From Beroe forskalii (lineage: Eukaryota; Ctenophora; Nuda; Beroida; Beroidae), in contig WFMF01000153.1 of NCBI GenBank assembly GCA_011033025.1, forward strand, positions 186,001 to 250,000: a stretch of DNA of 64,000 nucleotides. The letters are read 5' to 3'. The stretch's first letter is position 1, and every line of letters begins with the position of its first letter. Below, one piece after another: positions 33,001 through 63,000 of the stretch. The notes under the pieces are model-generated. The model did no database searches. It saw nothing but the letters and a program-made list of their open reading frames with translations, and was not told the DNA's origin. The translations under genes and the position numbers were made by a program.

Positions 33001-36000
33001 TTTATCACGGCTCCACTCTTCGAGTGTCGCGTGATAAATTAGATATAAATATTTCGTAGCAAGCTACTCAATATTTATATCCTATTACATACTCATTTCA
33101 TTCGTATGTAATAGAGATATGTTAATTCCTGGTCTTTCGCTAAAGTACATTTACAACACCATGTAACAATATAACCCACCTAGGGCTGGTATCTGCGCAG
33201 TGGCTGGTACAGTTCCTCAAGTGGTAGGATATGTTGAACTTCAGGGCCTGAGTGCCCTCGTAGATAACCGTCACAGTGTCCCGAGCTTTGTACTGCATCA
33301 CGTGATCAGAGCGAGCGATGTGATTGGTCAGCTCGGCAGGAAGGACAGCCAATAGGAGGGACGGAGAGGTAGGAGTGAGGGTGGAGGTGGGGAGACCTTC
33401 CCATATGAACAGAGTCCCTGAGAAGACAGGGGTTGAATGCAGTGGAAACAGTGCTGGTTGTGTTGTTGAGACGTAGGAATTGAAACTAGTTGATCATATT
33501 ATAACACGACATACGTGCTATGTCCGATCTGATAAATTTATAAACTTATAAGTGGCACAAGGTTGATTTTTGGTGCAAAAATCCAACTGACCATCACATC
33601 CTCTTTCGGGGATGGAAAACATTAAAACAACTCTCAATTCCACAGAGAGTTCCACAAGGTTGCTTTATTGATAGCTTTCAAACCAGACACCACACCCCTC
33701 TCACCTGGTAGTGAAGGAGCAGTTGAAGTAAACCCATCTATCGTCAGTACCACCTCTGCCGAACTAACATCAGGCTCCACATACCACAGAACACTCTCGT
33801 AGCCTCCCCCTCCCTTGCCTCGTAGCCTTCTCTCCAACACCACGTTACCGAAGGAGACGTCCTCCGAACCAGACAGTCGGAGCCGGGACCTGGCCAAACG
33901 GTTACCATTTCTCAATCTGGTTACGGTTTTGGTTGGCTAAAAACGCCCGGTAACCGGTATTTTGGTTTCAGTTCGGTTAACTGACCGTTTCCCCTAAACG
34001 GTTAATTGCGAAATCGTAATATTCATTGACGGTTTCAGTAAGCTGAGAACGCCAGTTAACCGGTATATTGGTTTCCTACCTTGCGACCAGATAGCAGGTG
34101 CCACCCCCTACTGCGTCACCATAGTAACCCTCCCCGCAGTACTGACAACTATCTCCCCGGGTGTGTCCCGTGCAGTAGCAGTGACCCGTCACCTGCGGTA
34201 CAATGTGTTAGTTGGTACAGTCTCACTTGAAGAGTCTAAATTGTCCATTTTAATTAGCTTTGAAGGTGCAAAAGTGCATCTAAATTGGCAATAACAGTGA
34301 AAGTTGAACAGCTCAGTTTGTGCCTCTTTGGTGAGCGCGGCCTAAGTTTGCGCGGCGTGCAGACATGTTATTTATTCGCCGCGCAAACTTACGCCGCGCA
34401 CAGAAAATACGCGCAAAGCGCAGTTCAAACTGCCCATGAAATAAACTGTTTCATTGATGAATTGTCTATTGTCTAAGTGTCTCACTGACCCTATCGCAGT
34501 ATCCCAGCTCGGGGTTGTGGTGTCCGTTACACTGACAAGGCTCACACGCTGCGCGCGGGTGCGGGCCTCGTCGGAACGCTCCCGGTAGACAATGCTCGCA
34601 GTGCTCGCCTTCCGTCAAGTGTTGACAACTGTCACACTTTCCTAGACCCTGAGGGGGAATACACATAGTCACACTTTCCTATACCCTGAGGGGGAATACA
34701 CATAGTCACACTTTCCTAGAACCTGAGGTGGGGTATAAGTTACAATGTGTTGGCAACTGTCACACTTTCCTAGACCCTGAGGGGATACACATAGTCACAC
34801 TTTCCTAGACCCTGAGGTGGGGTATAAGTTACAAGGTGCTGACAACTGTCACACTTTCCTAATCCCTGAGGGGTATAAGTTACAATGTGCTGACAGCTGT
34901 CACACTTTCCTAGACCCTGAGGGATACTAGTTTCAAGGTGCTGACAACTGTCACACTTTCCTAGACCCTGGGGTGGGATACACATCATCACACTTTCCTA
35001 GACCCTGAGGTGGGGTATAAGTTACACTTTAACTTCCCCAAACTCTGAGGGGGATATTCAACTTTTGAGTTATACTTCCTTTAACCCTGCGGATATTCAG
35101 TCATCAGTGTGAGATATCTGCTTAAGCACGGGATTCAAATACATCGTGCGGAGTTTCATTGACCAATCAGCTTAGAGCTGACAAACTCATACGTGTGAAT
35201 GGGCGTCGATAGAAAGATGTGTCGAAAGAATAATTAGGAACACGCAAATATCCGCGTTCTTTCGACGGATCCAAGAACACGAATATACTTTGAACTATAG
35301 CTGCACCCATATGTCATTCCTAGACCCTGAGAGCACGTGGAATGGCCGTTACAGTTGCAGTCGGAGTCACAACTCAGTCCCGTGTAGCCCAGGTTACACT
35401 CGCAGAGGTTGTATGTGTTGCATGTGCCGTGCACGCACTTGTTCCCTGTCTCACACCTGGGGAGGAAAGGTTTCTTGCATGTGTACTAGCAAATGATTGG
35501 TTACCATTTCTCAATAAATCCGGTTTCGGTTGGCTGAAGACGCCTGGTTAACCGGTATTTCGGTTTCGGTCAACCCGTCGTTTCCTAACTTGTACCAGTG
35601 GTTGGAAAGTTGGGCCAAGAAGAGGAAATCACCAATCACCGTGAGGTGCAGCCAAAGATCAGCCAAGATGACCGCCCTGGCCAGGGGTGAACGCCCTGGC
35701 AAGGGGTTAACCCCTGGCCAGGGGGTGACGCCCTGACCAGTGACGCCCTGGCCAGGGGTTGACGCCCTGGCCAGGGGTTAACGCCCTGGCCAGGGGTTGA
35801 CGCCCTGACCAGGGGTTACCGCCCTGGCCAGGGGTTACCGCCCTGGCCAGGGGTTACCGCCCTGGCCAGGGGTTACCGCCCTGGCCAGGGGTTACCGCCC
35901 TGGCCAGGGGTTACCGCCCTGGCCAGGGGTGAACGCCCTGGCAAGGGGTTTAGCCCTGGCCAGGGGTTTACGCCCTGACCAGTGACGCCCTGGCCAGGGG

Positions 36001-39000
36001 TTTACGCCCTGACCAGTGACGCCCTGGCCAGGGGTTAACGCCCTCGCCAGGGGTTAACGCCCTGGCCAGGGGTTAACGCCCTGGCCAGGGGTTTACGCCC
36101 TGGCCAGGGGTTTACGCCCTGGCCAGGGGTTGACGCCCTGGCCAGGGGTTGACGCCCTGACCAGGGGTTAACGCCCTGGCCAGGGGTTACCGCCCTGGCC
36201 AGGGGTTACCGCCCTGGCCAGGGGTTAACGCCCTGGCCAGGGGTTAACGCCCTGGCCAGGGCGGGAAATCACCACTCATCGTGAGGTGCAGCCTGTCCGT
36301 CCCTCCATCTCCCAGCCGTCTCCCTGGAAACCCGTCTTACACTTGCACCAGTATCTGGCCGCATAATATGGTTTTAGTTCTCTTGCTCAACATATTCTCT
36401 ACTTAATACGGTGATGAGTAATAATGTCGAGCCCCGAACGGGCGAGCCATTATTAAGAACCGTAGTACGTATTAATACTGCAACCACTATAAGGACAAAC
36501 ATATTTTGATAAAATTTGTCTCGAAAATTATTCATTTTTTAGTAGCTTCGCAAAAAATATATATCAAATTTGTACCTAGCAGTTGCACTATTAATGTTCT
36601 TATTGCTTCTTTCAAGTATTCTCGCAGTTGCATGCGACCAAGTATGTGGTTTATTAAAGATAGAAATATATCATTGGAGAGAGACGATATTTACGAGTCG
36701 CATGATAAATTTAGATTTTAATATTTACCATTGTAAAATTGTAATTTCTGTGCAACATGAATAAATTCACAAGTGCACTTACCCGAGTGTGGTGTGATAG
36801 CAGTCCGCATGCGCGTGACAGGCGTGCAATTACCCTGGTCGGGTGTCAAAACAGTCTGCATGCGCGTGACAGGCGTGCACTTACCCGGGCGTGGTGTCAA
36901 AGCAGTCCGCATGCGCGTGACAGGTGTGCACTTACCCGAGTGTGGTGTCAAAGCAGTCCGCATGCGCGTGACAGGCGTGCACTTACCCCGGGGTGGTGTC
37001 AAAGCAGTCCGCATGCGCGTGACAGGCGTGCAAGTTCAGTGCGCACTCGTTCACAGCCGGACACTCCGCATAATGCCACACGTGGGGGCACCGACCCTCC
37101 TCGAAATTACCCTGGGAGATTTTGGGAATTCGAGAAATTACCCTGGGAGATTTGGGGAATTCTAGAAATTACCCTGGGAGATTTGGGGAATTCGAGAAAT
37201 TACCCTGGGAGTTTTGGGGAATTCGAGAAATTACCCTGGGAGATTTGGGGAATTCGAGAAATTACCCTGTGGGAGATTTGGGGAATTCTAGGATTGATCA
37301 ATTTGTAACAGTACAAATGCAAGTTGTTATAAATTCATTTTTTTAAATTCACACACACTCAGAGGCATTGAAAACTCAAAACATCACATTACACATTAAC
37401 TCGAAGCGTTACAGTACACCTTAACTAAAAGTGCAGATTGGAAATATCACTATTCCCTACCTGAGAGCAGGTTCCGTTGTGGGGCGCCGCCTCCGGGGCA
37501 CACCAGCCGCAACCCCGGGCTGCCAAACACTCGCTACACGAGGAATGAGTTTCACAGGTCCCGCAGAGAGCTTCCACCTTTCCTGGGGAGAAAGAGGGAT
37601 ATTAGATTTTACAGGGAAAATGGGGGCACTTTTTAGTGAATATCACTAAACATGCCTCTGTAAATGGAGCGTTTTTGACGGAGTGGCAGACAGCGAATAA
37701 AGAATGGATTAAACATCCTTAATAACCGTCACTGGCTTGATAAAACGTCTTAAATCCTTCGTTTCCTGTCATTGGCTGTAACAGCTGTTGGAATAGAAGT
37801 AAAACTTTCAAAATTTAAAAAAACTCGAAGGGAATATGTAATCTAAATGTTGAATTTTTCACATATTGTCATATTATTACGCAATAGTTCGGTCTGTTCA
37901 GATGCCCTCAGTTTCAATATTCAATGCATCATGCCCTATATTCTTGAAAATACTCCGAGGCGTGAGATCCTTTTTGTAGTTGCAACACTAATAATATTAA
38001 GATTTCACACGAATCGCAACCTTTTGTGAGGGGGTTTATTTTCATATTCCAATGCGCATCATTTTTCATATAGTCGCAGTAATTGTTGAACTTGACTATA
38101 ACTCTAGAAGGTCACTGCTTGGTGAATATTGAATATTTATTGTTGACCCTAGCTGTAGCCCTGATCATTTTCGGGTTTTTCAAGGCCTTAAATTATTTAT
38201 TAAGTCCGTCTAATCTATCATCTGTGCATGTTGCATGCTACATTTAGAAAATGATTTATTAGTATATCTTTATATTTGTACATCTTTCTCACTCTTCTCT
38301 TTTATGCTGTTTTTACAATAGATATACGACCCGTCACGTGACTGCAACTACTCTGTGTTTTGTAGATAAGAATATTCATTATCTTCTTGTTCGTGCAACA
38401 GATTTTGTGATCTCTAGACAAAATTTTCTCTCAGATTGCTCGACTTGTTTTGAGGATCATATGTTTATATTCTACTGAATTTATCTTCCTTTTGTCGTCG
38501 CTTGTCTTATCTTAGATAACCAAATATTCTGCGTTAGCCTTTTCTTAGAATCTCATTAGAATTGCAAATATGCCCTCGTATATGAATATTTGCAACGGAG
38601 AAGATTTTGCTTGTTTTACTTCTCTTTTGTTAGTTTGCGCTCGTGCTCCGACAATATAATAACACTATTTCTCTCGACTCTGGGTAGATTCCTCAGCTCT
38701 CTGGATAAGTAAAATGACGGTGTTAATCTCAAGTACCGCTGTGTGGAAAGCACTGATCATCCTGTGTACCAGTGTTGTTGTATCCACTGCCACAGGTCTG
38801 ACGATTTGTTACTGGTTCATGTCATTCCATGAACACATCATCCGAATTTTAAATAAAGAGTTTATCGGTTTAAATGATAATGACGATAATGAAATTGTCC
38901 TATATCCTATATCATTAATCGCTTGACGGCTGACATCTGCCGTTAGTGGGTTACGTTTTTAATCGACACTTGACATCTAAACTCTCTCTCCCACAGCTCC

Positions 39001-42000
39001 AGATCGGTGCCAAATCAGAGAACACAACGGGTTCCTGAAGTCTGTGTGTGACTTTGGAAGCAGACAGGAGTACACGGTCTTCAGGTGCGTTAACGACCGG
39101 TTACTATTTCTCAGTAAATCCGGTTACGGTTTGGGTTGGCTGAAAACACCCCGTCAACCGGTATTTCAGTTTTGGTTCGGTTAACCGACTGTTCCCTAAA
39201 CGGTTGAAACTACGAAATCAAAATATTCGGTTTTGGTTTCGGTTGACTAAAAACACCCGGTTAACCGGTATTTCGGTTCGGTTAATTGATTTTTCGGTTT
39301 CAGTTCGGTTAACCGGTCGATTCCTCAGGTGCGCAACCTCTGGAGAGTATTTCATGGATGTCCACTCCGGCATCGACATAGTCGGCATCTCTCCAACCGG
39401 TGGCTTCGTCAACGCCACCTGCGCCCACGACACCAAAGCGTACCAGTTCTGTGGCACTAAGAACTTCGAGAACGTTAACTTTGGGGAGGAAGATGAGTAT
39501 TTGTGCGGGTACAGATACTGTCTCTCTGAAGCGTACAGCTTGGTTCTCTACGCGTCCATCCCAGCCTCAAGCCTGGAGGAGGGACAGGGAAGCAACAGGG
39601 AGTGCGATGAGTCAACGAATCTCTACAAACTCTCCAACATAGGACACAGTTTGCTGTGTGATGGGAACTGTGATCTGATGTCCTGTAACGATGAGATATC
39701 CTGTAATGGGTACACTTACGGGCTGCAGTGCTCCTTTAAGTTGGTGACTATGGACGCAGGGGATGAAGGGGACTACGTGCAGCCCATGCAGGTCAGTCTT
39801 CACGCCAGTTACGTATTTTTAAACCTCTATCAAAATTTATCGTTTTCATAGTAATTCTCATATTTTGTAGAAAAATACGCGTTTTTTCTTCAGAAGCATT
39901 TACGTCGTATTTTGACGATTTTAGCACGTATTTACCGACCCTGCAGGTTTGTGACGGGACCATCCAGTGTCTAGAGTACGGACAAACGTACGGCGGGCCC
40001 TCCTCCGACGAACACTTCTGCGACATCGCCTGGCGGGCAGGATTCAGGTTCTGTCGGCGGTCTATAACCGGGCGAATAGTACCCATCTTCAACTTCACTC
40101 GGTGTGCGGCAATGAAATACCTAGCTGCCCGTGTAAACTCTTTCTACGGGCACTACGTTACCCAAAACGCAAAGAAATGCGGACAGCAGCACGTTTGTGT
40201 GCCGTATTGCACGGATTTCATGGACCAAACCAACTGCACGGACGCCAGTAGAGTTGCTGTACGGTGTAAGATCGGGGGCTTTGAATCGACTGTTTCCAAG
40301 GAGATGGTGTGCGAGAACGCCAACGTTAGATTAGGGATGTGTGATGATCTGATGGATGTGAAGTGTGTGATTAGCTCCCCCTCCTGCTCACTCCACAAAC
40401 ATCTCATGTGTGATGGGGTGCCGGACTGCAAGGACAAGTCCGACGAACACAACCCTATCTGTGAGTCCTTGTCCAACAAACTGTGTCACAGGAAGTATGT
40501 CCATGAGAGTGAGTTAGAGATACCGCTGTCCTGGGTTATGGATGAGGAGGTGGATTGTACTGATGGAATTGATGAGAATATTGACATCTGGAAGACGTGT
40601 GGGATTGCAGGAACTGCAGCATTTTGTAGGAGCTGAGCAGAAGGAGTGCTCTGATGTGTACATTTGTCAGAGTGGAGGACACACCAATTTTATCAAGTTC
40701 GAGGACCTTTGTGATGGGGTGGAAACGTGTGGCAATGAACAGCAGATATGTCAAACTACGAGGAAAAGACCAGTTCTTTATCAAAAGTTTCTGATTGATG
40801 GCACAGAAAATCGTGTTTCACGATTAGGCCTCTTCTGCATCAAAGGCATGAGAAATTACGGGCTTCTTGTGAACAAACCCTGCTCCAAGCAGCCCTCAGA
40901 CCTCTTCCTGGCCGTATTTTCGGTTATCCCTACCACGAACTGGTAATTCCTGATGATAAGTACGATTGTCGTTACATGTACGGCGAACTCTATGTGTTTC
41001 TGAGTTGCTTGGGCTATTGTAAGGTATCTGGTGCATGTCCTGTCCCTGAAACCCCCCTGAAACCTGATGCTTGTCCGGGTCAGTATACCCAGCGAGTCTA
41101 CACTCTGGCACAAGCCACTACTTCCCTTACCTTCCTGGTCAGGAAGGAGCGATCTTACACCAGTGAATTCTTCTCCTGTAACAACAGTCTCTGTATCGAG
41201 TTCAGCAAGGTGTGCGACCTGGTAGATGATTGTGGGGACAGAAGCGACGAAATGCGCTGTTCAAACCATTTCAAATGTGCTAACAATGAACACTTTCTGC
41301 CGATTAATCAGAAGTGTGACGGAGTCATTGATTGTGTCGACTTTTCAGATGAGTGCAATGAGGATTGCAACAAAAGAATCCTGCCAAACGCAATATATAA
41401 GAGTTTTGCTTGGTTGATAGGATCCTTGGCGACAGTTTGTAATTTGCATATATTGGTTAACATTGCTCTGGACGTTAAGAACTGCAAAAAGGCAGCACAG
41501 CTGTCAAACAAAGTTCAGATATTCCTCATCGCCCTTGGAGATTTCTGCACTGGACTTTATCTCATAGCAATCGCTTCCCTTGACTTCTTCATCTTCAGCG
41601 ACACTTACTGCTTCCATCAGTTCACCTGGCTTACCAATCACGGGTGCTCGGTACTGGGAAGCTTAAACACCTTCGGATCTCTGCTCTCAATAATTTCCAT
41701 GACGAATCTGAGCTACCAGCGAGCAATGGGCATTAAGAACCGCATGACTACCTCTGCAGATGGAGTCTCCACAAAACACAAAGTTAAGCTGATTTTCATG
41801 TCAAGTTTCCTGGTTCTCTTCTCACTTTCCATTGCTAACGTCCCTCTACTGCATAGCCTGGAGGACTACTTTGTGAACGGGTTGGTGTACGATCAGTCAG
41901 TCAGTCTTTTCATTGGGATCATTGATAAGAACATGCACTTCAATGCTCTGGCAGCGTACTATGGCAGGATGAGGAACGAGACTCTTAACTGGAAGTTGAT

Positions 42001-45000
42001 CCATGAAATGGTGCATAAGATGTTCTCCCACGACTACAATCTCGCGCTGGAATTCCAAAAAGATGTCAAATTCTACGGCAATGACGGTGTGTGTTTGTTC
42101 AAGTATTTCGTTACCAAAGACGACCCTCAACACGGGTTTTCCCTGTCTGTCCTCTCGTTCAATGTCGTGTGTTTCGTCTGCATCTCCATTGCCTACATCT
42201 ACATCGGTTTGGTGACAGTCAGAGGATCTAAGTTCCTGGCGAGGTCCCCTGGTCCCACAGGGCAGCAGGTTCGGGCGAGGAACAAGAAGATCCAGCGCCG
42301 CATCATTGCGCTGATCAGCACTGACTTCGTGTGTTGGGTGCCCTTTGTCGTGTTGTGTTTCCTACACTACTGCGATATCCATGATGCCAGTGACATGTAC
42401 ACCACCTTTTCCATGATAATCCTACCCATAAACGCGGTAATAAACCCACTGCTTTATGACAGAGATGCGAATAGCACCATTCAAACCATCACGGAAAAGG
42501 TTCTGAGCTATCCCAGGAAGATCTGGGAAAGGCTCCTGTCGAAACCAACCAGTGATCCTTGTGCAGCAGCTGAGGCGGATGAAACACGCCTGAAGGATTC
42601 AAATTTTCCTGCCCGCAAGTCGAAGGGGAGGTTGGGCCATGTGTTGATTTGCCGTTGTCGGTGGTGACAAGCAATATCATTGAGGCTTCTTTTGGGCAAA
42701 GGACGACGCCGTTTTAAATAAAACTTTGGAGTTACTCGCATCGATTGATGAAGGGATTGCTGAAGACGCGCATCTTATTTTCATAGAATTTCTATCGAAA
42801 GTACAGTATTTTTACACGTTTTCTTTATTGTACACATAAGGGTGACAAAAGCCTCATCAATGATAACAAAGAAAAAACTTTAAAGAAAAGAACCTTCTAT
42901 TATGATCACGGACTATTTAGACCACACTGAGACATGGGTAGATCGAATCACTGTAAATTTGTACTGTGTTTTGTAGATCGAAATAAAGTACAAATTGTTC
43001 ATGTTATCGATAAGCTTGTGACACATGAAAATAAGATGCAATATTTTCTCTGCTTTTCAAATAACACTTAAAAATGATGGACTGTTTATGGAGAGGATCA
43101 AAATTGTTGAAATGTAAGCCGTTGTTAGTTCAGTTATTACAAATCACCATCTTTTATTTTGTTAAAATTTCCAAGCTAATAAACTCAGTGCAATGTCAAT
43201 TCGTGGGGCAGATTTGATTATTTGGGACCATTTTGGTGACTGCTGTATCGAGTTTGGAAAAGCATTCTTATTTCCAAAATCCAAGTCGTACTACCAAATG
43301 AGCAACATTGGTTGAGATTGAAATAATTTAAGCAATCCATTGCCCGCGCGAAAATATATATGCGCGCAGCACATTTTGCGCGGATACACTTAAAATGTAA
43401 AACTTGCGCGTTCCATTTTCTAACTTCCGAAGACCCTATCAGTAGACGGCACCTCTTGAACCACTTCCATGACTGAAAGCTTCGCGCAGACTGTTCCAAA
43501 TTAGCACCTCATTTCATTTACTGATCATTTTAGCATGAATGAAATAAAATTACTGATAAAACAAATATTGGCGAACCAGGTCTTTGAGTCACACAGGCAC
43601 ACTACCCTTGAGTTGAAATAAAATTATCAGGAGACAGGAGAAGGGCTGTACAACTCGCCTCCTCGCCAAGCAGGTAATTCTATGTCTATACCAATAAAAT
43701 CATCCAATATTTAGCTTTTACAATTGTTGATGATGATTCAAAGCTTGAATCATCTTCTAATCAAGTTTAAATCATTCAAATTCAAAGATTCGATATTCGA
43801 TAATCTATTAAGCTATTATTCAGTGCCTTCAAGTTATTGAGTCTTTACTAATCATTAATAGACTATTACTGGAGTTCATGGTAGGAATCAATATACATAT
43901 TTAGAGTGGAATTAGTTCATGACTAGATCCCATGCACATTACGGGTAACAACTGTCGAACATACATTAACATATTAAAGTACGAGAAAACCCGTTGGGTT
44001 TTCTCTTTAATTGGACGTATATATTCAGTTGGACGTACAATAAATTGAACGAAGTCATTAATGCAATTTTTTGTTACTGGGGGTAGGGGTGCAACGTAAC
44101 GAAATTACGAAATATTTACATAGGATTTGAATATGAATCAAAATATATTGCAGATTTTACGATTTAATGTCAATTGTCAAGGACACATAACAGTAAATAA
44201 GAAGAACTCAAGAACAATGGTTTTATAATCCAAAGTTCTGATTCGGAGAAAAGATGGGCAACAAATTTGAATCAAAGCTCATTGAAATAAAAAATGTACG
44301 CATTTTCACCTGTTTATTACCCACTCTTAACTTCTTACTTCTAACTTTAATTGGACATCTAGTCAGTTAGAAGTACAATAAATTGAATGAAGTCACTGAA
44401 GCAATTTTTTGTTACCGGGGGTAGGGGTGCAACATAACGAAATTACAAAATATTAACATAGGATTTGAATATAAATGAAAAATATTGCAGATTTTGCGAT
44501 CGTTAATTAACGTCGAGGACACAACATTAAATAAGAAGAACTCAAGAACAATGGCCGTTTTCTAATCCAAAGTTCAGATTCGGAGAAAAGATGGGCAACA
44601 AATTTGAATCCAAGCTCACTGAAATCAAAGTTGTCCGCATTTTCATCTGTTTAGAACCCACTTCTAACTTGAGTAATTATAAATTCCTCCTTCTGTCGGA
44701 TCCTCACAGCCAACCATCGAAACTACAAATATCTTCATACGAAACAATTATCGCTGATTTTCACAATGGAACAAATTGTTCAACTCTTACCTTTTCTCCT
44801 ACAATAGTGATTAGAGTTGATATGCTTCTGTCGTAAACTTTTTACCAAACTCGAAAATTCCATTGAGAACGTAAATACGTAAATTATGACTTTAAACAGT
44901 TGAAACGTTTCCAAAGTACACAGTAACGAAATGGCAGATGCTTCGTTAAAATGCACGTGCAGTTTAGCGCGCGCAATCACCAATAACCATAGCAACGCGC

Positions 45001-51000: not shown

Positions 51001-54000
51001 GTGGAAACTACTGGAGGAGGAGGGACTGCTGCGCCTGGGAAGGGTGAGGGAATTAGGTGGAAAACTACTGGAGGAGGAGGAGGGACTGCTGTGCCTGGGA
51101 AGGGTGAGGGAATTAGGTGGAAACTACTGGAGGAGGAGGGACTGCTGTGCGCCTGGGAAGGGTGAGGGAATTAGGTGGAAACTACTGGAGGAGGAGGGAC
51201 TACGTGCGCCTGGGAAGGGTGAGGGAATTAGGTGGAAACTACTGGAGGAGGAGGGACTGCTGTGCGCCTGGGAAGGGTGAGGGAATTAGGTGGAAACTAC
51301 TGGAGGAGGGGAGGGACTGCTGTGCGCCTGGGAAGGGTGAGGGAATTAGGGTGGAAACCACTGGAGGAGGAGGACTGCTGTGCGCCTGGGAAGGGTGAGG
51401 GAATTAGGTGGAAACTACTGAGTGAGGAGGGGACTCAAAGCCTGGGAAGGTGAGGGAATTAGGTGGAAACTACTGAGGAGGGACTGCTGTGCGCCTGGGA
51501 AGGTGAGGGAATTAGGTGGAAACTACTGAGGAGGAGGGGACTGCTGTGCGCCTGGGAAGGGTGAGGGAATTAGGGTGGAAACTACTGGAGTAGGAGGGAC
51601 TATGTGCCTGGGAAGGGTGAGGAGGGTGGAAACTACCGGAGGAGGGACTGCTGTGCGCCTGGGGTGAGGGAATTAGGTGGAAACTACTGGAGGAGGAGGG
51701 ACATGCGCCTGGGAAGGGTGAAGGAATTAGGTGGGAAACTACTGGAGGAGGAGGGACTACAAAGTGCCTGGGAAGGGTGAGGGAATAGGGTGGAAACTAC
51801 TGAGGAAGGGTGCCTGGGAAGGGTTATTTAGAAAAACTACTGGAGGAGGAGGGACTGCTGTGCCTGGGAAGGGTGAGGGAATTAGGTGGAAACTACTGGA
51901 GGAGGGACTGCTGTGCTCCCGGGGAAGGGTGAGGGAATTAGGTGGAAACTAATGGAGGAGTAGGGACTGCTGTGCCTGGGAAGGGTGAGGGAATTAGGTG
52001 GAAACTAATGGAGGAGTGAGGGACTGCTGTGCGCCTGGGAAGGTGAGGAATTAGGTGGAAAACTACTGGAGGAGGAGGGACTGCTGGGTGCCTGGGAAGG
52101 TGAGGGAATTTTTTGGAAACCACTGGAGGAAAAGGGGATGCCAGTGGCCCTGGGAAGGGTGAGGCCTGGGAAGGGTGACTAGGGGTGGAAACTACTGAGA
52201 GTGGGGGACCACAGCGCCTGGGAAGGGGTGGGGAATTAGGTGGAAACTACTGAGTATGAGGGACTGCCGTGCGCCTGGGAAGGGTGAGGGAATTAGGTGG
52301 AAACTACTGGAGGAGGACTGCTGTGCGCCTGGGAAGGGTGAGGAATTAGGATGGAAACTACTGAGGAGGAGGATGCCTGTGCGCCTGGGAAGGGTGTGAG
52401 GAATTAGGTGAAAACTACTGAGGAGGGGGACTGCTGTGCGCCTGGGAAGGGTGAGGGAATTAGGTGGAAAAGGAAGTGGGACTACTGAGGAGTGAGGATG
52501 GCCTGCGGGAAGGTGAGGAATTAGGTGGAAACCAATGGAGGAGGAGGACTGCCGTGCGCCTGGGAAGGGTGAGGAATTAGGTGGAAACTACTGGAGGGGA
52601 GGGACTGTGCTGTGTGCCTGGGAAGGGTGAGGAATTAGGTGGAAACTACTGGAGGAGGTAACTGCGCTGGGAAGGTGAGGAATTAGTGGAAACTACTGAG
52701 TAGGAGGGACTGCTGTGCGCCTGGGAAGGGTGAGGAATTAGGTGGAAACTACCTGGGAAGTGAGGGAATTGAAACCACTGAAGAGGGAGGGCGCCTGGGA
52801 AGGGTGAGGGAATTAGTGGAAACTACGGAGGGAGGGACTGCTGTGTGCCTGGGAAGGTGAGGGAATTAGTGGAAACTACTGGAGGGGAGGACTGCTGTGC
52901 GCCTGGGAAGGGTGAGGAATTAGGTGGAAACTACTGGAGGAGGAGGGACTGCTGTGCGCCTGGGAAGGGTGAGGGAATTAGGTGGAAACTACTGGGAGGA
53001 GGGGACTGCTGTGCGCCTGGGAAGGGTGAGGGAATTAGGTGGAAACTACTGGAGGAGGGGGACTGCTGTGCGCCTGGGAAGGGTGAGGGAATTAGGTGGA
53101 AACTACTGAAGGAGGGACTGCTGTGCGCCTGGGAAGGGTGAGGGAATTGGGGTGGAAACTACTGGAGGAGGGGGGACTGCTGTGCGCCTGGGAAGGGTGA
53201 GGGAATTAGGTGGAAACTACTGGAGGAGGGGGACTGCTGTGCGCCTGGGAAGGGTGAATTAGGTGGAAACTACTGGAGGAGGGGACTGCTGTGCGCCTGG
53301 GAAGGGTGAGGAATGGGGTGGAAACCACTGGAGGAGGAGGGGACTGTGCCTGGGAGGAGGAGGAACTAGTGTGAAACGCCTGGGAAGGGTGCTGTGTGCC
53401 TGGGGGGTGAGGGTGGAAACTACTGGAGGAGGAGGGACTGCTGTGCGCCTGGGAAGGTGAGGGAATTAGGTGGAAACTACTGAGGAGGAGGACTGGGCCT
53501 GGGAAAGGTGAGGAATTAGGGTGAAACTACTGAGGAGGAGGACTGCTGCGCCTGGGAAGGGTGAGGAATTAGGTGGAAACTACTGGAGGAGGGGGACTGC
53601 TGTGCGCCTGGGAAGGGTGAGGGAATTAGGTGGAAACTACTGGAGGAGGAGGGACTGCTGTGCGCCTGGGAAGGGTGAGGGAGTTAGGTGGAAACTACTG
53701 GAGAGAGGGACTGCTGTGCGCCTGGGAAGGGTGAGGAATTAGGTGGAAACTACTGAGGAGAGGGACTGCTGTGCTCCTGGGAAGGAACGAAACTACTGGA
53801 GGGGGAGGGACTGCTGTGCCTGGGAAGGGTGAGGGAAATTAGGAAACTACTGGAGGAGGAGGGACTGCTGTGCGCCTGGGAAGGGTGAAACTTTGGAGGA
53901 GGAGGGACTGCTGGCCTGGCTCCTGGGAAGGAGGAGGGACTGCTGGGAAGCCTGGGAGGGAAGGGTGGTGGAAACTGGAGGAGGGGACTGCTGTGCGCCT

Positions 54001-57000
54001 GGGAAGGTGAGGGAATTAGGTGGAAACTACTGGAGGAGGAGGGACTGCTGTGCGCCTGGGAAGGGTGAGGGCTGTGAAACTACTGGAGGAGGAGGACTGC
54101 TGTGCGCCTAGGAATGAGGAATCAGGTGGAAACTACTGGAGGAGGAGGGACTGCTGTGCGCCTGGGAAGGGTGGGGAATTAGGTGGAAACTACTGGAGGA
54201 GGGGGACTGCCTGCGCCTGGGGAGGGTGAGGAATTAGGTGGAAACTACTGGAGGAGGAGGGACTGCTGTGCGCCTGGGAAGGGTGAGGGGTAGGTGGAAA
54301 CCTGGAGGAGGGGGACTGCTGTGCGCCTGGGAAGGTGAGGGAATTAGGTGGAAACTACTGGAGTAGGAGGGGGACTGCCTGGGAAGGGTGCGGAAACCTG
54401 GAGGAAGGGACTGCTGTGCGCCTGGGAGGGTGAGGGAATTAGGTGGAAACTACTGCAGGAGGAGGGGGTACTGCGCCTGGGAAGGGTGAGAGGAATTCCT
54501 GGGGAAGGAGGAGGGACTGCTGTGCTCCTGGGAAGGGTGAGGGAATTAGGTGGAAACTACTGGAGGAGGGGGGACTGCTGTGCTCCTGGGAAGGGTGAGG
54601 GTAGGTGGAAACTACTGGAGGAGGAGGGACTGCTGTGCGCCTGGGAAGGGTGAGGGAGTGGGGTGGAAACTACTGGGTGGGAGGGACTGCTGTGCTCCTG
54701 GGAAGGGTGAGGGAATTAGGTGGAAACTACTGGAGGGAGGGTGTGCCTGGGAAGGGTGAGGGAATTAGGTGGAAACTACTAGAGGAGGGACTGCTGTGCG
54801 CCTGGGAAGGGTGAGGAAGGGGAAACTATTTTAGTGGAGGGGACTGCAAAAGTGCCTGGGAAGGGTGAGGAATTAGTGTGGAGTGGAGGAGGGGGACTGC
54901 TGTGCGCCTGGGGAAGGGTGAGGGAATTAGGTGGAAACTACTGGTGGGAGGGACTGCTGTGCGCCTCCTGGGAAGGAACCACTGAGGGACTGCTGTTAGG
55001 TGGAAACTACTGGAGAGAGGGACTGCTGTGCGCCTGGGAAGGGTGAGGGAATTAGGTGGAAACTAATGGAGGAGGAGGAGGGACTGCTGTGCGCCTGGGA
55101 AGGGTGAGGGAATTAGGTGGTGTGATGAATAATTAAAACATAATACATCATTTAATGTTAAATTAAAACATAATAATATGATAATGTGTCCTACTAAGGA
55201 GCCCTAACATTCCTGTTTGGACAAGAAAATTTCAAATATAAATTATCAATCTCAATTGAACTGAAGCTACCTGATCGGGCTCTGGTCGTCTGTGACATGA
55301 GGACTGCGTGACATTCCAGCCACAGAGCTGATCAGTGAGACAACCCAAACACGTGACCTGATGGGTGCAGGTTCCTTCTCTGTAGGGCACCAATACACCT
55401 TCAGATAGCACCTAAAGGGGGATATTAGAAAGTTAGAATAGCACCAAAACACCTTCAGATAGTACCTAAAGGAGGGATATTATAGAATAGCACCAAAACA
55501 CCTTCAGATAGCACCTAAAGGGGGGATATTAGAATAGCACCAAATCACCTTCAGATAGCACCTAAAGGAGGGATATTATAGAATAGCACCAAAACACCTT
55601 CAGATAGCACCTGAAGGGAGGATATTAGAATAGCACAAAAACACCTTCAGATAGCACCTGAAGGGAGGATATTAGAATAGCACCAAAACACTTTCAGATA
55701 GCACCTAAAGGGGGGATATTAGAATAGCACCAATACACCTTCAGATAGTACCTAAAGGGGGAAAAAATCAACACTATGGGTGCAAGACGCAAGAAAAGGG
55801 AAGGCAACCGATGTAATGAGTGGAATTTTTGGTAACTGTAGGGATAAATATAGATGTAATGGGCGCTTAAACGCTAGTGTATCGTAATAGAACACACTCT
55901 TAGACCAGCAAATGTTCTTCAATTAAGAAACCTGAATTATGAAGTATTTCAATATGGGGGAACCAACGGCGGAATGGGGAAACAAATTGGGAAATAAAAG
56001 GGGGTGCAAAGATTGTCCGACGTTGTCTGACCGCCTCGCGGGGGAAACAAACGTTTGTCAATTCAAGGAGAGTATTCCATAACCAAGCACATTGCCAAAA
56101 AGTCCACCAGGACTTCGGGCGCGCTTGCTTCCCCGAAAAAGAAAAAAAACCTAAAGGGGGATATTATAGAATAGCGAGATAAGATATACCAATTCAAAAA
56201 GATGAGACAGGGAGTAGGGACAATTGGAATAACGGTGAATAGCACAAAATACTTCAGGAATCAGGAATCAAGAATGGGGTACTAAGCGGTTACATGTCAA
56301 AGTGGTGACCGTATACCACAACTTACATGGTCGAGGCGACAGCCAAGACTATGTAAGTTGGATAATGGACTCGAGGTGTGCCAAGTTCATTATCTTAGGT
56401 ATACGGTCACAGCTGAGATCATGGAACCGGATTATACCTCGACCGAAAACAGCTGGGACCGACTATTCTCTGACCAAACAACAGTAATTTCTTCCTACTC
56501 GGGTCTGACGACCCTCGTCCGTATTCAAGGCTTAAGTGGATTTTTGAGTCCTCCTTTATAAAGTCAAATTTCATTGAGTAGTCAGTACGCTATTTTGGGA
56601 AAAAATCATTTGACTTATTACCTATACCTTACTGTAATCACCTGATCAGGTCTATAAGTCTGCGATCTGTCCCAGAAGATCTTCAGATTAGAAGGTTTCT
56701 GCACGTTCTCCGTGACGTACTGTGTGAGTTCCGCCTTCAGGTAGTTAACTTTCCGATCCGGCAGACTGTAGCGCCATTCTTTGCTCACCCACATCACCTT
56801 CCCTGAGGGTATATGGGATCGTTCACATATTACGTCATCACCTGGGGGGTTTCGGAATGATTACGTTACATGTTATTGTAACAAATACAACTACTGTAAA
56901 CTTGATTACGAGGGGGAGAGGGGTTAAAATCGGCCAAAAATTGATTACGTAATATGGGAACGATCCCTATGGAGGGTAGAATAGCAGTGCAAAGTAGCAG

Positions 57001-60000
57001 TCCACTGACCGCTCCTCGGCGACTCTCCCTGTTCATTAACAGCGGACCAGGGTGCCAAGCTAATCTTAAAGACCCCAGCTAGAAGCTTAATAGAATTATG
57101 CTACAGAGCACATTTTACCAGGTTTTCACATCCAAGGAAACTATTTGATTGTGAGATAAGAAGTTAGGAATATGTTACCAATATACCAAATTCAAAAGTG
57201 GAGAAATACAGTAACCGAAATCGCACAAAATCCTATCAATTGAACTAAATTACGTGGCCTTTAATTTAAGCGGCCCAACTTTAAAGCGGCATTTTGGACA
57301 AAAATTGCAAACTCTCCTTTGTCAAATGTCAACTGTCCTTGAGAGCCGGCTGAATAATATACATACATTGACATTAGCGATCATCAAACATAATTGAAAT
57401 ATGAGTTGGCAAAACTGTAAAACCTTCAATAAGTCCACTGGCCTAGAGCTTCTCTAATTAGATTCAATTACCATGTACAACTCCATGTATTTTATTTAAA
57501 TTTTCCAATAAAAAAGGAGTCAAGCGCTCACCTGTCATAACTCGAGTAGCGTTGTAGCGTGACACTCCAGTGTACAGCGTCACTATCCCATTGATGTAGC
57601 TGACTCTGATCACCTCGTAATGATCCGGCACCCCACTAGGCCCCAGGTTGTAAGGGGTTGTAGGGGCTTTCCCTCCCCCCTCAGGGGTTGTCACGTTTAT
57701 AAACCCCTGCAGATGAGGTTTTTTGTTTAGAAGATGGTGCAGACCCAACCTAAAATGCTGGTTTTTCTTAGTTTATCAAAATTTGAATAGTCTCCAGTTT
57801 TCGTCTTATCAGAAACATCCGAGAATCATGAAAATATTACAGAATTGAAAGCAAGGAACTAAGAAAGCCAGCACCTCCAAAGAAACCATACCTGGAGATA
57901 GCCCCTATTAATTGTACTTTACTCCCACCTAAATCAGTAAATCACAATATATCACAATACCTGGAGATAGCCCCTAGAATAAAGTACTTCTCCCACCTAA
58001 ATCAGTAAATCACAATATCGCAATACCTGGAGATAGCCCTATTAATTGCCTTTACTCCCACCTAAATCAGTAAATCACAATATATCACAATACCTGGAGA
58101 TGGCCCTATTAATTGTACTTTCCCACCTAAATCAGTAAATCACAATATCACAATACCTGGAGATAGCCCCTATTAATTGTGCCTCCCACCTAAATCAGTA
58201 TAAATCACAATATATCACATACCTGGAGAATAACTATTGCTGGAGACCTAAATCAGTAAATCACAATATATCACAATACCTGGAGATAGCCCCTATTAAT
58301 TGTACTTTACTCCCACCTAAATCAGTAAATCACAATATATCACAATACCTGGAGATAGCCCCTGTACCGCACATCCTTGTCCCCCTGGGGCAGCGACCAG
58401 TCCCGCGCGTAGAGCAGGTGCACGTCAGCTTTCCGCACAATGGTCACGTGATCAGGATGCGTCATGTTGATTGGGTCGTGGTGCGTGATCCAGTGCAGGC
58501 CGGGGGGCGTGTCGCGGGCCTCGCACTGCGCGGGCTCCAGGAGGAGGGTGCCCGCGGAGCCCCACCACGGGGCCGGGGACTGGACTCCGCACAGGTTACC
58601 GCTATTCCGCGCCCTGCAATGACCCGAATGATTGAATGAATAACAACGTTTTGGAGAGAAAAATAGCAGATTTAGAATTATTCCTTCATTTTCTATGTGT
58701 GAATTTAATATTAAAACGTCATCAATTGCTGGAGTTAAATACTAATAGTATTACCTGCAGCTGGCGTCCTCGACACACCACTCGCAGCCCCAGAGGGTAC
58801 ACTCCGTACAGTGTCTCAGTCTGTAGCACACCCCGCACTGACTCATCCGGTGCCGGCACTTTTCAACCGGCTTACACCGCTTACCGCACCTGACGATTAT
58901 ATTTTTCATAGACACGCGCCTATCGGGTCAATTTTGGGATACTTCCCGAGGGCGTAAGCCCAAGAGATGTATCCAGCTTTGGCCCGAGCCCGCAAGGCGA
59001 GGGTCTAACCAATATGGATCAGGCAAGTGTCTTTATAAGTTTATATTATAGACCCGCATGAAAACGTCAGAGGGTTGTATAATGAAGGGTTTAGTAACGA
59101 GTAAAAATTGCTAACCTTGATATAACACACGAGGGCCGCAGGCCCGAGTGTGTTATATCGCATTAAGAACCGAGGCCGAAGGCCGAGGTTTTTATTGCAT
59201 AGGTTTGCAATTTTTACGAGTTATTAAACTGAATTATGCACCGCAATTACTCGTGAAAAAGGGGATAATTTCAAACACAAGGAAATGTTTTAGTTTATGA
59301 TATGAAGGTACAACTGGGTCGACTGTGCGAAATAAACTATTATGCACCTTCCAGGCATGTTTATGCTATGTATTCAAAAACCCTATAGGCACCAGGGTAC
59401 CGTGCGCAATAAATTATTACGCACTGTAGTGCCGAAATCCGGATTTATTACGCACTGTAGGTCATAATAATTTATTATGGTGCAGTAGAACAGTGCGTAA
59501 CAATTTATTTCACACAGTTGAGCAAACAGTACCTTCAAATCTTGATTTAGAACATTTCCTTGTGTTTGAAAATATTGTCATTTTTCGAGTAATTACGGTG
59601 CATAATTCAGTTTAATAACTCGTAAAGTTACTAAACTCAGCATTAAAAAACCTCGGCCTTCGGCCTCGGTTTTTCAATGCCATATTACACACTCGGGCCT
59701 CCGGCCCTCGTGTGTAATATTACGTTTAGTAACTTTTACTCGTTACTAAACCCTTCATTACGCACTGTTCTACTGCAACATAATAAATTATTATGACCTA
59801 CAGTGCGTAATAAATCCCGATTTTGGCACTCCAGTGCGTAATAATTTATTGCACACGGTATCCTGGTGCCTATAGGGTTTTTGAATACATAGCAAAAACA
59901 TGCCTGGAAGGTGCATAATTCTACGATACGGCACCTCATAATATTACTCTAGGATAATTCTGATTATGCTTGAATTGTCAAATATCAACAGACCTGACAA

Positions 60001-63000
60001 TAGTCTACGATCGATTCTACGCATTATATGTGTGCAGATAGCTCAATTGACAGATAAAGACGGGCAAAATTTTTCACGCTTCACGGTTCAAAATGAATTT
60101 TCAACTGGTTGTGCGTTATCTGTACTTTCATAGAAATATCCCCCACCTGACGCAATGTTGGAAATCCTCGCAGCTGCGTCGTGGGGTGGTGGCACAGTCC
60201 TCGCCCGGGGGCGAGTAAAGCAGTACGTCACTCAGACTCCGACCGTTGAAACCTCCCACTACCAGCAGTGTGCCGTGGTACACCGCCACGGCGTGACCGT
60301 ACCTGATGGATACGAGTACGGTGAAAATTCCTGTTTAGTTATCCCTTAAACACAACCCCAGATTTGTGTATGAGTTGGTATTTCACCTTCTTTAAAGAAG
60401 TATCTCACAAACTCCCCAAACTTGGCATTACAGCGTGCATTTTGCGCTTTCTTTGGCGAATAAAGATTCAATATGAGACCCTCTTGTAAATTGACAATTA
60501 TTGAGATGGGTCTCAACAGTTTAATTTTAAGATCTGTACACCTGTACCTTGGGGTCGCTAACTGGTCTTGCTTCGCAGACGGCAGAGCAGTCCACTCCAT
60601 GCAACCCATGTCAAACACAAACATCTCCCCACTGAAACACTTCCCGTGCTCTTCGTCATCCTGGAGACTCCCCCCGAACACGACCATGTAGCGGCCCAAA
60701 GACGCCGCCTTGTGGAACACCACACCCGGCATCACCCGGGTTGTCTTCACCAGAGACCAGACGTTCTGTGCGATGTTATACACCCACACCTGAGAATTAA
60801 TAGCAATTGAAAGACGTGATGAATAATTTTGCCAAAATGTCAACACAATAAAGAGTTGCAAATGTGTTTAATACGATGTGTGCGATGTCAAGTATAAAGT
60901 TGATTTTCTGATTTTAATAATACCGGGTGGCCCAAAAAACATGTAACATTTTTAAACTTTGATAACTTTTTCTGTTTAAGGAGTTTCTCCATGAAATTTT
61001 GAGATGTCATAGGTATGGGTTGTAAGTTTTTGCACCAAAAATTTGAAGTGTCTAGCTCAAAAAATGCCCGAGTTATAAAATAAAAACCGCTAAAACCAGT
61101 TTTTCGGTCACATTTCTGCTTAGACTCGGGATAAAAATGAATTTCATCTCCAGTTCCACGATGCTCTGGAAATGCCTGAATAAGCGAAATTTTAATTAAA
61201 ATACACGAAACAATGCAAAATAAACACAATCTGTGAACCATTGGTTAACAAACATCATGTTTATCTCTACATCATGGAATGTGACCTGCATATGGTCACT
61301 TTTTTGTGTTGCAAAATTGCACATATCTCCTAAGTTTTTTGAGCAAACTGAATGAAATTTTCAGAATATGTCAGGCAAACGTTGCACAACATTAGTCCAA
61401 ATTTTGGTAAATTTTGGAGCTTTAGAATTTGAAAAAAACAGTTTTTTGTGTCTCAAAAATCGGAAAACCCCAGTTTTACGTTCATAACTCGGACATTTTT
61501 TGAGATAGAAATTTCAAATTTTTTGTCCAAAAACTTACAACCCATTTCTTTTACATCCCAGAATTTCAGTAAGAAACCCCCAACACAGAAAAAGTTATAA
61601 AGTTTTTAAAATGTTACATGTTTTTTGGGCCACCCGGTATTTTTAGAAGCCCATTGCGGTTTCGGGGTTTTCAATCATCACATGACGTGAGGTTGAAATT
61701 ATTATTATTTTTCATTCCAATAAACATAATGACGAGGTTTTACACCCACACCTCACTACTCTTCTCCTTCTGAATGCGAGGCAGAGGTACAATACCCCCG
61801 AAGACAACGAGACTGCGTGAGGCGGAGTCGAGGACGGTGGTGTGTCCGTATCTCCGGAGGTGGTTGGAGTGGGGGATGATGGGCGTGGTCAGTTCCCAGG
61901 GCGTGGCAGTGTGGTTCTCAAGGAGGTAGAGGGTGTACAGGCGGTCGGAGTAGTTCTCAGTGTCAACGCCAGTAAGTCCTGTGGGGGAGTGAGATGAGAA
62001 ATGTAAGGGGAACTCTAAAACTGCATAGGCCATAGAGTGATGTTCTTCTTGTCAACTATAAACAAGGATATGTATCAAAGTGGAATATAGGCACCCAAGA
62101 GATTAGCCCGAAGCAAGGGTCGAGTCTAATCTCTCAGCCAATATATATAATCGATAACGCAAGTGTCTCTGTCGAAAGCACACAATTTTGCGCGTCTTTA
62201 ACGAGCCCTCCGTCAATTGAGCGATCTACACACACAAATGGGTTACCTCCGAAAAGTAGCACCCTGTTAGGTGGAGCTAGTGTGAGGGTGTGTCCTGCTA
62301 CTGCTTCCACCAGAGAAGGGTATTGAGTCCAGCAGGAGGAGGTAGTGTTGAAGAGCCAACATTCGTCACTTAGAGCTCCACCAGCCTGTGGGTTTCAAGA
62401 GGGGTTTAGGAACTTATCGAGTATAACACTCATAGCTCCACCGGCCTAGTGGTTTAGGAACTTGGGAATACTTTCTGATTCTCTGATTTTGGAGGTCAGA
62501 AGGGGGGGGGGGGAAGTAGTATGTGGCTGAAGTCTGTATCACTGTCAATCAAGACTCAAGGTTTTTGAATTTACCTTTTTTAAACCTGTTAGCTTATAAG
62601 CTTTCGAAACTCAAGCAAAAAAGACTCATATATTACATTTACATTAACATGCTAAACACATGAAAGTACCTGCACCATTCCGCCGCAATACAGAATACTG
62701 TCCTGGTAGACCACTGAGCTGTGCTTGTACCTCCCTGATAAAAGATAGAGTTTAGCATTGGAAGTGGATTTAACAGGAAATATGTGCACACATGGATCAA
62801 TCGATGAAGGGTAAAAACGCATTTAAAGTGCCCGCAATTTACTTTTCATCGAATTTCTATCAAAAGTACAGTATTTTTACACGTTTTTATCGATCAATCC
62901 ATGTGTTCACATTTGGGTAAACTCGTCGAGTAACCAGCGGAGAATTTCCAAACAGCATTGACTATTCCATTTCACTTAAAGCACTTATTAATGCCATTTC

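Follow-up and report, generated by a model that had tools for sequence, protein, structure and literature searches.

Do exon edges that are repeated in tandem together with their splice sites record how introns are born, or how introns grow once they are present? The question is raised by a stretch of 64,000 nucleotides (nt) of contig WFMF01000153.1 (positions 186,001 to 250,000 of the forward strand), hereafter the window, in which the minus strand at 31404..63859 holds part of a MEGF8/attractin-like gene with 22 modelled exons and a continuous reading frame. A first-pass annotation of the window had listed eight arrays at exon edges of this gene and had drawn from them that introns arise or expand by repeated local duplication of AG/GT-bearing exon edges (the slash marks the splice junction here and below). 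For comparison, a genome of 216 Mb in 1134 contigs was searched, the gene of the window lying on contig C196. Very probably, the arrays are splice-junction minisatellites ("mirages") that stem from random tandem duplication over already existing junctions and were amplified later.

The exons were set by splice sites and reading frame, and they join into two blocks:

63859 down to 46459, minus strand: E1 to E13, joined to 746 codons with zero stops
37582 down to 31404, minus strand: E15 to E23, joined to 414 codons with zero stops

E14 was not located between E13 and E15, and the intron between these two is excluded from the 20-intron counts given below. Pfam matches to the attractin/LZTR1 β-propeller, kelch and EGF_LMN_ATRN were obtained for six of the nine fragments scanned; the Pfam label is attractin-like, and MEGF8 is the gene name that we presume to apply. 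The start of E13 is best placed at 46679, within an array unit, and keeps the frame with E12.

The places named by the first-pass annotation contain the following features, with boundaries from Tandem Repeats Finder (TRF) for all but the last:

57888..58363, minus strand: E9 donor array; ~69-bp unit made of 15 nt of exon end, the donor and 54 nt; seven junction copies
55387..55762, minus strand: E12 acceptor array; 47-bp unit made of 22 nt of 3' splice site and 25 nt of exon start; nine junction copies by scan
46642..55120, minus strand: E13 acceptor array; 58-bp unit made of 24 nt of 3' splice site and 34-38 nt of exon start; ~132 junction copies over 8.5 kb
37103..37288, minus strand: E16 acceptor array; 31-bp unit made of 9-13 nt of exon start and 18 nt of 3' splice site; six copies
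36773..37032, minus strand: E16 donor array; 51-bp unit made of 44-46 nt of exon end and GTAAGTG; five copies
35673..36261, minus strand: intron 17 array; 19-bp unit in ~30 copies, with no exon edge inside
34631..35026, minus strand: E19 acceptor array (exon 20 in the earlier numbering); mixed 37/51-bp units reading CTCAG/GGTCTAGG, with 11 nt exonic
62378..62460, minus strand: E4 acceptor duplication of two copies, seen in the sequence; local alignment score of 15 to the upstream copy, absent from the TRF output

TRF thus detects arrays at seven of the eight places, and six of the eight contain a true exon edge. In these six the unit straddles the edge with 9-46 exonic nt and carries the splice site, and the junction is present in most units. 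Each unit represents one edge of one intron, meaning either a 3' splice site with the exon start or an exon end with the donor. To this extent the list of eight holds. The E4 feature is a duplication of two copies, and the array at 35673..36261, described as lying at the acceptor of exon 18, begins 18 nt past the E17 donor and stops 216 nt ahead of the E18 acceptor; after it, the E17 edge occurs a second time. The copies are not identical, since the main TRF rows have 75-95% matches among them.

A dispersed element (introner or transposon) was considered as the source of the E9, E12 and E13 units and rejected. In a genome search that scores only the best candidates, the E9 unit has no occurrence elsewhere; apart from their own arrays, the E12 and E13 units each occur once more, as a single copy on contig C914. 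By reading, the E12 acceptor unit is also present as a partial copy upstream of an insertion at ~55785-56140. By eye, this insertion (55785-56140) and another at 45940-46150 are alike and possibly represent a short mobile element, the first of which detaches the partial E12 unit.

A second copy of the gene on C914 provides the same introns in an array-free form. Protein searches matched E4-E13 and E15-E20 on C914 (416-532 kb) and E1-E3 on contig C458, with parts of later exons elsewhere on C196. C914 was compared from short stretches around the junctions, where the exon edges of the two copies agree in 386 of 402 aligned bases; six introns were read whole, and the E4 and E19 loci only near the acceptor. 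At all eight loci the C914 stretch has the same splice junction without an array. Counted by junction 20-mers, C196 and C914 have 7 and 1 copies at the E9 donor, 9 and 1 at the E12 acceptor, 132 and 1 at the E13 acceptor, 6 and 1 at the E16 acceptor, 5 and 1 at the E16 donor, and 2 and 1 at the E17 donor, while the 19-mer of intron 17 occurs 30 times in C196 and once in C914. No second copy is seen in the 154 nt upstream of the E4 acceptor (L072) or in the 88 nt upstream of the E19 acceptor (L075) of C914. By reading, the C914 intron lacks most of the E9 unit's intronic portion.

All six introns read whole are shorter in C914, with 146, 232, 580/648, 215, 422 and 269 nt against 642, 1230, 8591, 349, 632 and 823 nt in C196, in the same order. 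Intron 9 thus measures 146 nt versus 642, and intron 12 measures 580 or 648 nt, depending on which of two possible donors is taken, versus 8591. Other C914 introns are far longer (~22 kb after E10 and ~21 kb after E18, by search coordinates); hence, the difference between the two copies lies in the arrays and not in overall intron length. C914 also has, by reading, its own two-copy duplication at the E12 donor. Because the same junctions are array-free in C914, the arrays are best read as later growths at the edges of pre-existing introns, with the single copy taken, as the simpler assumption, for the ancestral state. On this comparison the arrays would show how introns grow, and not how they are born. 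The earlier claim that introns expand by repeated duplication of exon edges is thereby borne out, and its other half, that introns arise in this way, is not supported for the arrays named, the introns of which exist without them in C914.

Two neighboring exons differ between the gene copies in their splice sites. E17 (36280-36354; L070, L071) has 75 nt and phase 2 on both sides. Its donor in C196 is the nonstandard AT, which was retained in the model, and its acceptor in C914 is GG instead of AG. Since each gene copy has lost a different E17 site, E17 may be skippable. At the E18 donor (35300-35330), C914 has the ordinary CAG/GTTAGA, whereas the junction of E18 with E19 in C196 requires the weak donor GTCTAG. 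The region around this donor in C196 is similar to the unit of the E19 array, and a 6-nt shift of the splice may therefore have taken place.

Junction arrays recur in other genes, so that the pattern is general in the sense of recurrence. The sample was taken from Pfam matches for CCT, myosin, kinesin and dynein AAA_6, by which exons are found independently of repeats. Of 329 family matches, 318 were used and 11 dropped (eight without a break across the whole domain or the greater part of it, three isolated). From these, 60 of 78 planned regions were used and 116 of 125 candidate introns called, only five of the 116 being dynein. The introns have a median length of 247 nt (n=116), and TRF arrays cover 14.6% of their bases compared with 52.5% of the intron bases of the MEGF8-like gene. 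Depending on the threshold, 5, 7 or 10 junction-spanning duplications occur in these introns. One clear example is the following:

kinesin L035: unit of 56 bp, of which 41 nt are exonic and encode the conserved ...DLAGSERAA motif, in 42 ungapped copies

Others are kinesin L034, the donor of kinesin L031, myosin L022, myosin L030 (two copies) and the donor of CCT L005. Outside the counted sample, two dynein loci on C441 (L064, L065) have tandem copies, in differing numbers, of ~79 nt of exon end together with GTAAGTT. Three of the six sample junction arrays coincide exactly in position with an intron of an array-free paralogue, namely myosin L022 with L013 at 378.00, kinesin L034 with L043 and L045 at 84.33, and CCT L005 with L004 at 257.33. 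The arrays of kinesin L031 and L035 are near a paralogue intron, and that of myosin L030 (position 51.00) is without a counterpart in the sample.

Whether junctions are struck more often than chance allows depends on the null model, and the test trusted most is a birth test with equal detection, in which duplications at junctions and in intron interiors are detected by one rule. At up to 2, 3 and 4 mismatches, the sample has 5/79, 7/116 and 10/127 junction events versus 8.4, 11.0 and 11.0 expected (P 0.95, 0.95 and 0.69); by this test there is no general junction enrichment in the sample. Shuffled introns below 3 kb yield 0, 3 and 14 events in the sample and 0, 0 and 8 in the MEGF8-like gene, none of them at junctions. 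A uniform placement test of TRF arrays (score at least 50, as much as 60 exonic nt admitted, overlap of at least 5 nt) points the same way, with 5 of 64 sample arrays overlapping an exon versus 9.1 expected (P 0.97). For the MEGF8-like gene, which was selected for looking striking, the equal-detection test gives 6/22, 6/26 and 7/32 versus 2.0, 3.0 and 4.5 (P 0.005, 0.049 and 0.13), and the placement test gives 5 of 13 versus 2.2 (P 0.043). The first-pass annotation had held that random minisatellites should not begin at splice sites so often. Random births in fact predict at least as many junction-spanning minisatellites as the sample shows; the argument fails because the introns are short and the arrays abundant. 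A comparison of window scores at junctions with those of interior intron windows was dropped as a chance test, since points that share an array depend on one another. Herein, interior windows match more often than junctions (222 of 1944 points versus 6 of 232 in the sample, and 116 of 476 versus 7 of 40 in the MEGF8-like gene).

The explanation proposed for the arrays starts from tandem duplications of ~30-90 bp that would arise anywhere in a gene. Where such a duplication falls across an exon-intron junction, the protein would be unaltered if the copy adjoining the exon body (the first donor or the last acceptor) is spliced, and the duplication would survive. Exchange or slippage between the copies could then multiply the unit into the intron, sometimes over thousands of bases. 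The reading frame of the MEGF8-like gene is intact if the exon-nearest copies are used. We infer the choice of the splice copy, the neutrality of the arrays and the mechanism of joining and amplification; by eye, adjoining units have no more than a few bases in common at their joints, a pattern that would be compatible with end joining or template slippage.

Several observations weigh against this explanation and favor duplications that are targeted to splice junctions, for instance by transcription-linked breaks or R-loops, so that junction arrays are over-produced. The 3' ends of sample arrays cluster at acceptors, with 7 of 64 within 10 nt versus 2.0-2.9 expected (p 0.0035-0.025), which is the part of the comparison with random placement, as proposed by the first-pass annotation and run here on sample introns, that did show an excess; exon overlap did not. 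A cruder birth model with unequal detection, which requires 6, 10 or 14 exonic nt, finds 3, 9 and 6 junctions in the sample versus 3.4, 2.5 and 2.0 expected (P 0.70, <0.001 and 0.007), an excess at two of three settings, and 6, 8 and 7 versus 1.1, 0.9 and 0.7 in the MEGF8-like gene (P <0.001 each). The MEGF8-like gene copy also has many more junction arrays than the sample and exceeds expectation at the strictest equal-detection threshold. Some local preference may hence exist, chiefly at acceptors, and this copy of the gene may have undergone a burst. Furthermore, the use of the exon-nearest copy is presumed from the frame, the ancestral state is presumed from the two copies compared, and the differing copy numbers of C196 and C914 may be those of alleles or of paralogues. 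As a general account targeting is nevertheless unlikely, given the equal-detection counts and exon overlaps of the sample, which do not exceed expectation. Donors show no clustering either (array starts at donors in 1 of 64, no excess), and in the MEGF8-like gene 1 of 13 arrays ends near an acceptor.

That the arrays created their introns is a decidedly unlikely alternative. In the model of Rogers, tandem duplication of an AG/GT-bearing exon segment yields both a donor and an acceptor, and further copies would lengthen the new intron. Introns with in-register repeats at their ends do exist, as set out below, and lend this model some weight. The eight junctions are, however, array-free in C914, so the absence of the intron before the duplication, which the model implies, is not supported at these loci. 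The units moreover copy one intron edge only, and a donor and an acceptor within two copies of one segment are not found in the reported arrays. The exception is the junction of E18 with E19, both ends of which are unit-like; it appears secondary because C914 has an ordinary donor there. Selection of the copies, by which redundant splice sites would improve or regulate splicing, is very improbable. It could draw on the AG or GT, which almost every copy retains in eight of the nine arrays examined (e.g., 94 of 95 in E13, 41 of 42 in L035, 13 of 14 in L034 and 6 of 7 in L022). Yet the splice dinucleotides are not set apart from the other unit positions, which are kept about equally (rank fractions 0.18-0.90), and this fits young or homogenised minisatellites. 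Kinesin L031 keeps GT in only two of eight copies under the unit definition used here, and the C914 gene copy manages without arrays. Least probable of all is an assembly artefact with copy number inflated in one contig: the copy numbers of long arrays, judged from the assembly alone, may be wrong, but the copies differ, the same anatomy is present on several other contigs, and the two related dynein loci differ in copy number. Random duplication over existing junctions, followed by amplification, hence accounts for the arrays best.

A minority of introns, which could reflect intron gain, is of another kind. In-register repeats of at least 10 nt between the intron ends are found in 3 of the 116 sample introns (0.02 expected) and in 1 of 20 introns of the MEGF8-like gene (0.00 expected):

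CCT L011: introns at positions 58 and 164
myosin L022: intron at position 582
60775..61751, minus strand: intron 5 with the opening bases of E6; the donor and the E6 start carry the direct repeat GTGTGGGTGTA in register, with a run of 13 matches

These direct-repeat introns are candidates for gain by AG/GT duplication as in the model of Rogers, the only ones compatible with a donor and an acceptor in two copies of one segment. The repeat of intron 5 is present in shorter form in C914 (L073), and this intron is a candidate for an older gain. The matches of L004, L005, L007 and L009 are continuous over CCT position 58, which supports a gain in L011. A fifth CCT gene, L006 (C602, ~84302-84833), the intron of which lies outside the 116, breaks by reading ~three codons from position 58, so L011 is not simply the one gene with an intron in this region. 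An 11-nt direct repeat, CACAGGATGAC, lies on both sides of the L006 break, which has no GT donor in register and is possibly an unusual intron or an allele. By eye, intron 5 also contains, at 60920-61640, an element with inverted ends (ATACCGGGTGGCCC...) that is not seen in the C914 intron stretch L073.

It is conceivable, if doubtful, that local tandem duplication still creates introns and that junction minisatellites serve as a reservoir of spare splice sites for new exon edges, as seemingly at the junction of E18 with E19. This reading is based on the few per cent of introns with an AG/GT duplication footprint (the 3 of 116 and intron 5) and on the unit-like donor region of E18.

Comparable structures are described for amphioxus as mirages in Adh3, the globins BflGb6 and BflGb9, TnC and PGBD5. 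According to the available portions of these reports, they are minisatellite-like tandem duplications of exon-intron boundaries, on the donor or acceptor side, with units of 10-160 bp, AG or GT in many copies, and copy numbers that vary between haplotypes (PMC3087553, PMC3902484). In the same portions, reverse-transcription PCR suggests normal splicing. The six edge arrays of the MEGF8-like gene are boundary-straddling minisatellites in this very sense, as they have tandem units on either side of introns and AG or GT in the copies. Their copy numbers differ between C196 and C914, which may be alleles or paralogues. Unlike the mirages, they reach ~132 copies, face an array-free gene copy at eight loci, and were tested in frequency against random births; they are known from genomic sequence alone and probably belong to another lineage. 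Intron gain by tandem duplication has been described, as far as the sections consulted go, for ATP2A1, a potato RdRp and Drosophila (PMC4974935, PMC2891723). In those cases a new intron is made, whereas here existing introns are lengthened, and only the direct-repeat minority fits. The units of the junction arrays include an exon edge and a splice site, in contrast to ordinary intronic minisatellites. Ordinary intronic minisatellites, or variable number tandem repeats, share the local origin, the tandem amplification and the difference in copy number between gene copies.

Across eight loci of one gene, the two copies on C196 and C914 offer a with-and-without view of intron lengthening at the edges. 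The arrays suggest that conserved genes of an apparently non-bilaterian animal, too, contain the splice-junction minisatellites known from amphioxus. Where introns are short and minisatellites many, striking repeats of exon edges can be the residue of random duplication and protein constraint. In practice, gene prediction and cDNA mapping can be led astray by such arrays, in which an exon edge is present in up to ~132 near-copies.

A literature search returned no report of boundary minisatellites recognized outside cephalochordates, and the lineage is probably new for them. The mitochondrial contig has 13.3 kb, a guanine and cytosine content of 17.5% and its recognized genes on one strand; no tRNA and no Rfam match were found on it. 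Pfam matches are obtained for cox1 and, in six of ten further frames, for cox2, cox3, cob, nad1 and two proton-antiporter proteins. In cox1, AGA/AGG stands at positions that we take to be conserved Arg, and some ATA at presumed Ile positions. Neither this codon usage nor the negative tRNA search suggests amphioxus, which is judged an unlikely host; the mitochondrial contig rather indicates a non-bilaterian, perhaps a ctenophore.

Further observations concern the gene families of the sample and the surroundings of the MEGF8-like gene. At C291:171201-174881, kinesin matches 221-264 and 266-300 alternate several times ~0.8-1.2 kb apart, as repeated exon pairs or fragments. CCT/Cpn60 matches at C691:744893-746362 and C277:205785-207269 are unbroken over nearly the whole domain, unlike the multi-exon genes. 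Within the window, 29152-29368 is a minisatellite with a 21-nt unit, a multiple of three; it lies in an open frame that matches kelch weakly, and is probably coding. On the plus strand, 18700-22480 and 38660-42700 contain long open frames inside the span of the minus-strand gene that look LDLR-A/receptor-like by eye. Lastly, C196:288526-376563 has more matches to later exons of the MEGF8-like gene, at 33-92% identity, which suggests additional copies or relatives.

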